This document shows, one piece after another, positions 59,404 through 62,669 of a stretch of 64,000 nt of DNA. The notes beneath the pieces are model-generated. The model worked only from the letters and a program-made list of their open reading frames with translations. It did no database searches and had not been told where the DNA came from. The position numbers were made by a program, and so were the translations under genes. This stretch comes from Selenomonas sp. AB3002. GTDB lineage: Bacteria; Bacillota; Negativicutes; Selenomonadales; Selenomonadaceae. The first letter of the stretch is position 1. Each line of letters starts with the position of its first letter. The stretch is from positions 620,001-684,000 of the forward strand of contig NZ_JNIO01000008.1 of NCBI RefSeq assembly GCF_000702545.1, in the 5' to 3' direction.

Positions 59404-60648
59404 TTGGCATTTTCAGATAAGCTGTTGTCGTTGAAAAAAGAAGTTCTGCAGGAATCTGCGCCGCTGTTCAAGAAAGTTGAGGAGATAGCCGAAACCAATA
59501 CTTTGAAGGTGCTTGACGCTATGCGTGAGTGCAAGGTATCGGATAGTCATTTCAATACCACTTCAGGCTACGCCTATGACGATATTGGCAGAGGCAAGCT
59601 TGAGGAACTTTATGCTAAGATTTTTGGAGCAGAACGAGCTCTGGTGCGTACCCAGTTCGTGTCTGGCACCCACGCTTTGGCCACGGTGCTCTTTGGCATC
59701 CTGCGGCCTGGCGATGAACTGGTATCATTGACCGGAAAACCTTACGATACCATGCAGACTGTCATTGGTTACGATAATCCGTCGCCAGGTTCTTTGAAGG
59801 AATTTGGCATCCAGTACAAGGAACTGCCCATGGAAGAGGGAAAAGTTGTGGTTGATAAAATCAACCACATTGTCAGCCGGGATACAAAATTAGCCCTGAT
59901 TCAGCGTTCCCGTGGCTACAGCATGAGAAATCCTCTGTCCATTGAGAATATCAGGAAAATCACTGCAGAGGTTCATCGCATCAATCCGGATTGCATCTGC
60001 TTTGTGGATAATTGTTATGGGGAATTCGTAGATGTCCTTGAGCCGACACAGGTGGGGGCCGATATCATGGCAGGCTCCCTGATCAAGAATCCCGGTGGCG
60101 GCATTGCGCCAACTGGTGGTTATATCGCAGGCAGGGACAAACTGGTGGAGCTGGCCTCTTACCGCCTGACTGCGCCTGGCATGGGTGATGAGCTGGGAGC
60201 CAGCCTGGCTAATAACAGACTGCTGTTCCAGGGGCTGTTTCTGGCGCCTCATGTGGTTTCCCAGGCCATCAAAGGGGCAATCTTTGCTGCGGGCATGTTT
60301 GAGAAGCTGGGCTACAAGACGCTGCCCTTGGGCAATGAGGTGCGCGGGGATATCATCCAGGCCATTGAGCTGGGTTCAGCAGAGAAGCTGATTGCTTTCT
60401 GCGGGGGCATCCAGAAGTATTCGCCGGTGGATTCCTTTGCCAAACCGGAGCCCTGGGACATGCCGGGTTATGCTGATCAGGTAATCATGGCTGCAGGAAC
60501 CTTCGTGCAGGGTGCTTCCATTGAGTTCAGTGCGGATGGGCCCCTCAGGGCACCTTACAATGTTTACCTGCAGGGTGGCTTGACCTTTGAACATGCAGTC
60601 ATAGGCATCATGGGGGCAGCGCAGGCTATCGAGGATCTGCAGAGCTGA
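59404..60648 (+). CDS. Aluminium-resistance / methionine-gamma-lyase-like PLP enzyme
   Basis: Fold-type I PLP protein of 414 residues. Visible are FVSGTHALATVLFGILRPGDE, RSRGYSMRNPLSIENI, the aspartate strand CICFVDNCYGEFVD and the likely Schiff-base Lys in GSLIKNPGGGIAPTGGY (near 225). The family is widespread in Firmicutes and is annotated as aluminium resistance or methionine gamma-lyase; the true reaction is not established here. TTG 59404 follows AAAGGAAG. Terminated at 60702. Confidence 0.87.
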   Translation: MAFSDKLLSLKKEVLQESAPLFKKVEEIAETNTLKVLDAMRECKVSDSHFNTTSGYAYDDIGRGKLEELYAKIFGAERALVRTQFVSGTHALATVLFGILRPGDELVSLTGKPYDTMQTVIGYDNPSPGSLKEFGIQYKELPMEEGKVVVDKINHIVSRDTKLALIQRSRGYSMRNPLSIENIRKITAEVHRINPDCICFVDNCYGEFVDVLEPTQVGADIMAGSLIKNPGGGIAPTGGYIAGRDKLVELASYRLTAPGMGDELGASLANNRLLFQGLFLAPHVVSQAIKGAIFAAGMFEKLGYKTLPLGNEVRGDIIQAIELGSAEKLIAFCGGIQKYSPVDSFAKPEPWDMPGYADQVIMAAGTFVQGASIEFSADGPLRAPYNVYLQGGLTFEHAVIGIMGAAQAIEDLQS

Positions 60649-60701: not shown

Positions 60702-60726
60702 ACAGGCCAAATTTGGCCTGTTTTTT
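60702..60726 (+). terminator. Intrinsic terminator after the PLP enzyme gene
   Basis: A 20-nt palindrome ACAGGCCAAA/TTTGGCCTGT (60702-60721), followed by TTTTT. Confidence 0.88.
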
Positions 60727-60734
60727 CCTCAAAA

Positions 60735-60770
60735 TTCAACTGTGTTGTATTCCCGTACAACACAGTTGAA
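60735..60770. repeat. Perfect inverted repeat, candidate dif-like recombination site
   Basis: Arms TTCAACTGTGTTGTA (60735-60749) and TACAACACAGTTGAA (60756-60770) are perfect complements of 15 bp around the 6-bp spacer TTCCCG. No T-tract follows, so it is not a terminator. Tyrosine-recombinase core sites have inverted arms of about 11-13 bp around a 6-8 bp spacer, and canonical dif uses 6. It ends 45 bp before the recombinase ATG. A repressor operator is the main alternative. Confidence 0.65.
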
Positions 60771-60815
60771 CGTCAGAACAGAACATTTGGCATATTTTCC
60801 AGCGAGGATTTTTAC

Positions 60816-61868
60816 ATGAAAAAAGTGTATGACAATGTCAACCACATTTCTGAAGATGATTTTTCCGCAGTTTCCTTTGTCAACGACAACCCCCTGGCGC
60901 AGATTTCCATCAGCCAAACCATTACCCCGGATTATTTTGCCGCTCATTACCATGAATTCCTGCCACGCTACATAGCCAATGGCAATCCCAGCAGCAACAC
61001 ACTGAAAACTTATTGTTCCTGGATTGACCATTTCATCGGCTGGTGCCTGGATAATGGCCTGCATCCTGTATCCGTCACGGACTACCAGATGCGTCTTTTC
61101 CGGGAATACCTCATTGCCGAAAATTACCAGCCTGGCACCAATCACACAGTTTTCATGTCAATCAGGGCTTTTTTCTCTGCCGCCCAGCAACTTGGCCTCA
61201 TCAATAATAATCCCTGCCAGGATGTCAGCGTAGCCAGCACTACTTCCCACAATCTGCTGAATTTCTATAGTCAGGATCAGATGCGGGAAATCTGCGAGTT
61301 TTTCGACCAGGAACCCGATCCGTTCATCCGCAACCGCAATATCCTGATACTTTATCTGATGGGCGTTGAAGGTCTGCGCAATATCGAGGTACACAGGCTA
61401 TGCCGCGAGGATATCCGCTGGGACATCAAGATCATCATGATTCGGGGCAAGGGTGCTGCCGGGCGTCTGGACCCCATTTATCCCTGCTCTGAGACTTTCG
61501 ATATACTCAAAGCCTACATAGATGCCATTCCTTCGGATAAGCCAATCAAAAAGGAGGGCTCCCTCACCCCCCTTATTTTATCAGACTCCAACAACAACGA
61601 TTTGGGCCGCATTTCCCGCAATGGCCTGCGCTATATCATGAACAAAGCCCTGAAGATAACCGGCCTCAAGCAGCCCGGCCAGACCTGCCATATCTTCCGT
61701 CACAGCTGTGGCACCAATCTCTACCAGCAAACAAAAGACCTCCGCGTAGTCCAGGATACTTTGCGCCATAGAGACCCAAAAATCACCGCCCGTTATGCCC
61801 ATGTGAATCAGCAGCTGAATAACAGAGTAACCTCAGGACTGGCCTTGCGTGGAGACAACGAGCAATAA
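60816..61868 (+). CDS. Tyrosine recombinase (XerC/D/S/H-like)
   Basis: Site-specific recombinase of 350 residues. An SAM-like N-terminal core-binding domain (about 35-130) precedes the catalytic domain with the complete set Arg188 (EGLRNIEV), Lys212 (RGKGAAG), His292 and Arg295 (HIFRHSCGTNL), His318 (LRHRDP) and Tyr327 (RYAHV). It is longer than XerC/XerD (about 300) and close to single recombinases such as XerS and XerH. ATG 60816 has GAGG 9 nt upstream; a longer frame from 60657 has no support and would run across the terminator. No excisionase, phage genes or att repeats are near. Confidence 0.9.
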   Translation: MKKVYDNVNHISEDDFSAVSFVNDNPLAQISISQTITPDYFAAHYHEFLPRYIANGNPSSNTLKTYCSWIDHFIGWCLDNGLHPVSVTDYQMRLFREYLIAENYQPGTNHTVFMSIRAFFSAAQQLGLINNNPCQDVSVASTTSHNLLNFYSQDQMREICEFFDQEPDPFIRNRNILILYLMGVEGLRNIEVHRLCREDIRWDIKIIMIRGKGAAGRLDPIYPCSETFDILKAYIDAIPSDKPIKKEGSLTPLILSDSNNNDLGRISRNGLRYIMNKALKITGLKQPGQTCHIFRHSCGTNLYQQTKDLRVVQDTLRHRDPKITARYAHVNQQLNNRVTSGLALRGDNEQ

Positions 61869-61952: not shown

Positions 61953-62669
61953 TTACATATCAGGACGGATACCAGTCTTGCCGGTAAATTTATGATAGCT
62001 GCCACCCTTGCGGCGCTTCATGAGTTCGTTGAAAAGCTCCTCCGGGGTGATGTTGTGATAGGCCAGCAGCACCAGGCAGTGGTACCAAAGGTCTCCCATT
62101 TCGTAGACGATTTCATCTTTGGCCTGGTTCTTGGAGGCGATGACAGTTTCAACTGCTTCTTCGCCTACCTTCTTGAGAATCTTGTCCTGCCCTTTTTCAA
62201 ACAGGTAGTTAGTGTAGGAACCCTCCACAGGATTCAAACGGCGATCCTGGATAACATCATAAAGGTCATTCAGTACCTTGGCCAGGGCAACTTGGGGTTC
62301 TTGCGGAACTACAGCAATGCCCTTTTCCTCAGTTCCCATCAGTTTCCTGCCGCTGAAGCAGGAATAAGTACCCGTATGGCAGGCAACACCAGTCTGGTGC
62401 ACGCGCAGGAGCAGTGTATCGCCGTCACAGTCGTAGGAAATTTCCTTTACTTTCTGCACGTTGCCGGAAGTTTCTCCTTTTTTCCACAGGGACTGGCGGC
62501 TGCGGCTGAAGTAGTGGGCATAGCCTGTCTCAAGAGTTTTCTTCAATGACTCTTCATTCATGTAGGCAAGCATCAGCACCTGGCCGTTTTCTTCCTGCAC
62601 TACTGCAGGCACCAGGCCTTTCTCGTCAAATTTAACCATGGAAACATCAACATTTGCTGCATCTATCAT
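61953..62669 (-). CDS. hisIE: Bifunctional phosphoribosyl-AMP cyclohydrolase / phosphoribosyl-ATP pyrophosphatase
   Basis: Carries out steps 2 and 3 of histidine synthesis. The 238 residues contain the HisI part (about 1-125: [10 protein letters not shown]-like [34 protein letters not shown] with zinc Cys) and the HisE part (about 135-230: [27 protein letters not shown]). ATG 62669 overlaps the hisF stop. Last gene of its unit. Confidence 0.95.

Follow-up and report, generated by a model that had tools for sequence, protein, structure and literature searches.

The window, by which is meant the whole 64 kb stretch of DNA that was analysed (G000, contig C8, positions 620001–684000), contains a gene for a tyrosine recombinase with a long palindrome immediately upstream. 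The features of the locus, numbered from the first letter of the window, are as follows.

59404–60648, + strand: methionine gamma-lyase-like PLP enzyme, left neighbour of the recombinase gene
60702–60727, + strand: terminator-like hairpin and T-run of the upstream gene (ACAGGCCAAA/TTTGGCCTGT)
60706 (C8:680706), no strand: maximum of the cumulative GC skew, from 182 contiguous kb
60735–60770, no strand: 36 bp palindrome, candidate dif site, with arms of 15 bp and a spacer of 6 bp
60739–60766: conserved 11-6-11 core of the palindrome, ACTGTGTTGTA-TTCCCG-TACAACACAGT
60816–61868, + strand: 350 aa tyrosine recombinase, candidate single Xer recombinase (R188, K212, H292, R295, H318, Y327)
61953–62669, - strand: hisIE, right neighbour of the recombinase gene

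The recombinase ORF has an ATG start codon and a plausible ribosome-binding site and lies 45 bp 3' of the palindrome. Its product combines the Phage_integrase domain (Pfam, 4.6e-20) with the R-K-H-R-(H/W)-Y residues by which tyrosine recombinases are recognized, and the first-pass annotation was correct in ascribing to it a complete catalytic set and a length of 350 aa. An alignment with 23 relatives showed R188, K212, H292, R295 and Y327 to be invariant, while position 318 was Q rather than H in some of them. The predicted structure was weak (pLDDT 72.6, pTM 0.54), and the top Foldseek matches obtained with it (XerA, XerH and XerD) indicate the fold class only.

The palindrome reads TTCAACTGTGTTGTA-TTCCCG-TACAACACAGTTGAA and is the longest perfect inverted repeat with a short spacer among those of the window. 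Perfect inverted repeats with arms of at least 13 bp did not occur in 30 random windows generated with a first-order Markov model. It had been described as a perfect 15-6-15 repeat ending 45 bp before the ATG; both arms were indeed perfect and the distance was the same. The full repeat occurred once genome-wide and the 15 bp arm was found as an exact match only in that pair. The palindrome is intergenic, present as a single copy in the chromosome and low in GC (39% versus 53%); published hallmarks of dif sites are an intergenic position, low GC content and palindromic sequence (PMC2731167). The search for further copies of the repeat also returned a degenerate site on contig C2 (C2:43935–43962, L013:1484–1511; ACTGTGTTGTT-GTGGAG-TACAGCACAGT) with one mismatch per arm. 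This site adjoins a match to a phage terminase small subunit and an IS3-type transposase, and is possibly a dif mimic of a phage or other element that integrates through the Xer system of the window.

The position of the locus relative to the replication terminus was assessed from contiguous GC skew over 182 kb (C8:600001–781660) and from sampled stretches (29 of C8 and nine of C2) of a genome that is in several contigs, with dnaA on a third contig, C7. A distance of 29 bp separates the palindrome from the peak of the cumulative skew, which by this measure is the replication terminus. Known proteobacterial dif sites lie at a median distance of 7277 bp from the skew maximum, the closest at 146 bp (PMC2731167). 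All sampled stretches to the left of the site had positive skew and all of those clear of it to the right had negative skew, with a value near zero in the 20 kb stretch containing the site. Left of the site, the fraction of coding sequence on the + strand was mostly 0.8–1.0, and right of it this fraction mostly stayed under 0.35, a flip at the scale of the chromosome. The strand switch that the first-pass annotation had read as the mark of a terminus is thus real, and its proposal that the locus should lie at an extreme of the skew was borne out. The gene for an FtsK that has the gamma domain lies at C8:716400, 35 kb from the site. The skewed word GGGGGAG flips its orientation between 676.0 and 691.5 kb, an interval that brackets the site, with three exceptions among 43 occurrences; gene orientation biases such words, and GGGGGAG is therefore only a candidate guide sequence.

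A palindrome located at the terminus and between two transcription units could also serve to trap replication forks or to terminate transcription, and not in recombination. This is hardly credible. The palindrome is not followed by a T-run, and a separate terminator-like hairpin (60702–60727) belongs to the upstream gene, so that the palindrome is not the terminator of that gene. A fork trap would need several directional, non-palindromic sites, whereas the locus has a single copy of near-perfect symmetry, and in most genera the palindrome is linked to a recombinase gene.

Ten Phage_integrase matches, representing tyrosine recombinases, were identified in the genome and none approached the cut-offs of the XerC and XerD models. 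The highest scores among the ten were those of the window protein and a paralogue on contig C5 (108–125 bits, compared with cut-offs of 330–335); the window protein itself scored 113.9 bits against the XerC model (TIGR02224, cut-off 335.15) and 107.5 bits against the XerD model (TIGR02225, cut-off 329.6). The genome consequently contains one Xer-type recombinase, plus the plasmid-type paralogue on C5, and neither XerC nor XerD. The same pattern extended across the family, with XerD above the model cut-off in none of 189 Selenomonadaceae genomes but in 13 of 16 other families sampled from the class (about 360–406 bits). This indicates that loss of XerCD is a property of the family.

Homologues of the window recombinase (E≤1e-30) were present in all six genomes of the genus, in 72 of 189 genomes of the family and in 56 of the 99 good family genomes, and relatives with the recombinase include Selenomonas, Mitsuokella and Schwartzia. 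Among the sequences gathered, these recombinases formed one clade apart from the XerD proteins of the class, with long branches in places. A palindrome was detected upstream of relatives down to about 35–40% identity and was always of 11-6-11 geometry while the letters of the arms diverged (variants beside ACTGTGTTGTA include AGTGTGGCTAA and ACTGTGGTTAA), confirming conservation of the repeat upstream of orthologues. For 23 of 30 loci the upstream site outscored all 1880 shuffles, a control that is partly circular because some of these loci had contributed to the consensus used for scoring. Scanning for palindromes only, which is not circular, identified 11-6-11 sites upstream of the gene in three groups: ACTGTAGGTAA-TTACAA-TTACCTACAGT in g3, ACTTCCTATTT-CATAAA-AAATAGGAAGT in g7 and AAGTCCTACTT-CATAAA-AAATAGGACTT in g9. 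Location at the terminus was also observed in other genera. In one genome (G147), the site (1812343–1812370) is tens of bp from the regional maximum of the cumulative skew (1812403) and the skew changes sign chromosome-wide in the region of the site. In another (G039, group g7), the gene is on the plateau where the skew flips, and the site and the maximum of this flat top are about 7.6 kb apart.

These distributions also bear on the possibility that a plasmid or integrative element inserted at the terminus by chance, with the recombinase as its integrase and the palindrome as its attachment or resolution site. Presence of the recombinase is patchy across the family, plasmid-borne relatives with their own site exist (the C5 paralogue and the plasmids of Selenomonas ruminantium TAM6421), and the chromosomal system may descend from a plasmid or integrative module. 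Nevertheless, chance insertion is very unlikely: the flanks in the window are housekeeping genes (hisIE, hisF and methionine gamma-lyase) and element genes are absent, the recombinase is found in six of six genomes of the genus with identical neighbours wherever the contig reaches, and the terminus position recurs independently in other genera. The methionine gamma-lyase-like gene is a neighbour of the same-genus loci and also of some loci in other Selenomonadaceae.

A different arrangement was found in one genus (group g6), in which the recombinase gene is away from the terminus and without an adjacent site (G033, G035 and G037); for the two genomes that were mapped (G037 and G033) the gene is 0.8 Mb from the terminus. 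The palindrome-only scan of the terminus detected an identical perfect 11-6-11 palindrome in both of these genomes, ACTATCCATAA-TTACCA-TTATGGATAGT, at 757 bp (G037) and 327 bp (G033) from the skew maximum, and in G037 there was no recombinase gene beside it. A loose pattern, ASTGT-N18-ACAST, had missed this site since its arms differ. With two mismatches allowed, all 14 g6 genomes had the palindrome, one copy each, and the 175 other genomes lacked it. It adjoins hisIE, the gene to the right of the window recombinase, in 12 of the 14. Group g6 therefore provides a natural separation of the site, which is fixed at the terminus, from the gene, which has moved. A dif site would be expected to remain at the terminus, as this palindrome does, while a mere operator would be expected to move or vanish with the gene. 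The detached palindrome is the strongest result of the analysis and is not explained by an operator, a terminator or an attachment site. The distant recombinase presumably acts upon it.

Control of the recombinase gene through the palindrome, by the recombinase itself or by another regulator, would account for a symmetric sequence just 5' of the start codon, where operators of this kind are common, and repression of its own gene may well be a by-product of recombinase binding there. It is improbable that the palindrome is an operator and nothing else. Besides the g6 terminus palindrome, with the gene 0.8 Mb away, regulation leaves unexplained why sites in several genera lie from tens of bp to some kb from the skew maximum, and a 6 bp spacer that stays fixed while the arms diverge fits a recombination site.

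Taken together, the terminus position, the absence of XerC and XerD and the conserved repeat support the first-pass interpretation, and it is highly likely, as judged from sequence, that the gene and palindrome constitute a single-recombinase system for chromosome dimer resolution. Under the predicted mechanism, two recombinase protomers would bind the two identical arms of each site (11 bp, extended to 15 bp in the window). The two sites of a dimeric chromosome, the presumed physiological substrate, would meet at the septum and form a tetramer, which would exchange strands across the 6 bp centre so that two monomers are formed shortly before the cell divides. FtsK would deliver and activate the site, which marks the terminus. 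As the arms are identical, asymmetry is confined to the 6 bp centre, which alone would set the direction of exchange.

Dimer resolution by a single recombinase is known from streptococci and lactococci, epsilonproteobacteria, archaea and Legionellales. A Negativicutes family that is abundant in the rumen and the mouth would add a further case, with its own clade of recombinases. No publication naming an Xer system in Selenomonas or Negativicutes was found in the open-access literature. The best reading is of a one-enzyme Xer/dif system that is new to Selenomonadaceae and resembles XerS, XerH and XerL, without demonstrated membership of any of them. As with XerS/difSL of streptococci and lactococci, there is one recombinase of about 350 aa and a site adjoining the gene at the terminus. 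However, the arms of the 31 bp difSL are imperfect and unequal and its central region is 11 bp long (PMC5357621), while the window site has equal, perfect 11 bp arms and a 6 bp centre and is not of the difSL type; the window protein scored 57 bits against the XerS model (PRK05084, cut-off 267). XerH/difH of Campylobacter and Helicobacter likewise consists of one recombinase with a site beside its gene and a hexanucleotide centre (PMC2731167), but the arms of difH differ in sequence from those of the window site. In a search of the PDB, the match to XerH (5.6e-7) did not surpass those to XerD or XerA and thus gave no sign of special kinship with XerH.

XerL of the Legionellales is a single recombinase that homology searches had missed and that acts with long, uninterrupted inverted repeats of 10–12 bp, and its site and gene are sometimes far apart and plasmid-borne copies occur (PMC9765430). 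Compared by description only, the system described here is similar in its uninterrupted symmetry, its plasmid copies and the separation of site and gene in g6, but it belongs to another lineage and in the window the site and gene are adjacent. With XerCD/dif it shares the 11-6-11 geometry, while differing in its single recombinase and two identical arms. Most known dif sites are less symmetric than these, which therefore make it possible to test directly what sets the order and direction of strand exchange if the two half-sites are alike. The letters ACTTCCTA occur both in the g7 arms (ACTTCCTATTT) and in the left half of B. subtilis dif, ACTTCCTAGAA (PMC3025954). Arms of both g7 and g9 (L160, L161 and L165–L167) resemble this left half, as if a half-site had been duplicated.

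The single-recombinase system is not universal in this XerCD-less family, as 43 of the 99 good genomes were without a homologue at E≤1e-30. A profile search at 1e-12 of 16 genomes from this set found no homologue in 14 and weak ones in two. Good genomes with neither XerC/XerD nor a window-type recombinase were observed in groups g8, g11, g19 and g21; one example, G092, is 99% complete, and in it the XerD model matched nothing at E≤0.001. The alternatives are that the family has other systems still or that certain lineages manage without any.

Copies of the recombinase were also detected outside chromosomes. The C5 paralogue (C5:68094–69056, L002; 57–59%) is on a 140 kb contig of the same genome, which is probably a plasmid, and has a degenerate site upstream (AGTATTGCTAA-TTCCAG-AAAGCCACATT); the pair likely serves plasmid multimer resolution. 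In S. ruminantium TAM6421 (G144), the only recombinase copy found was on a 285 kb plasmid, and the site motif was confined to two contigs, C8 and C10 of that assembly, neither of them chromosomal. These copies indicate that the recombinase family is also a plasmid module. TAM6421 may be compared with Coxiella, in which the chromosome depends on a plasmid-borne Xer (PMC9765430). A scenario joining these observations is that XerCD was lost in Selenomonadaceae and a symmetric module, probably shared with plasmids and directional through its 6 bp centre, was adopted, that in one genus the gene moved while the site stayed, and that in strains such as TAM6421 a plasmid-only copy might serve the chromosome. 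As a whole this is proposed tentatively, and some part of it may well be wrong.

In viral sequences, an exact pattern search of viral contigs returned no phage carrying the site, and relatives of the recombinase within phage records were distant integrases only. Four IMG/VR contigs filed as viral (L250–L253, 45–224 kb) encode relatives with 49% identity to the recombinase, and in two of the four the palindrome ACTGTGGTTAA-N6-TTACACACAGT is located upstream of the relative. These contigs may represent large phages or phage-plasmids, or plasmids that were misfiled.
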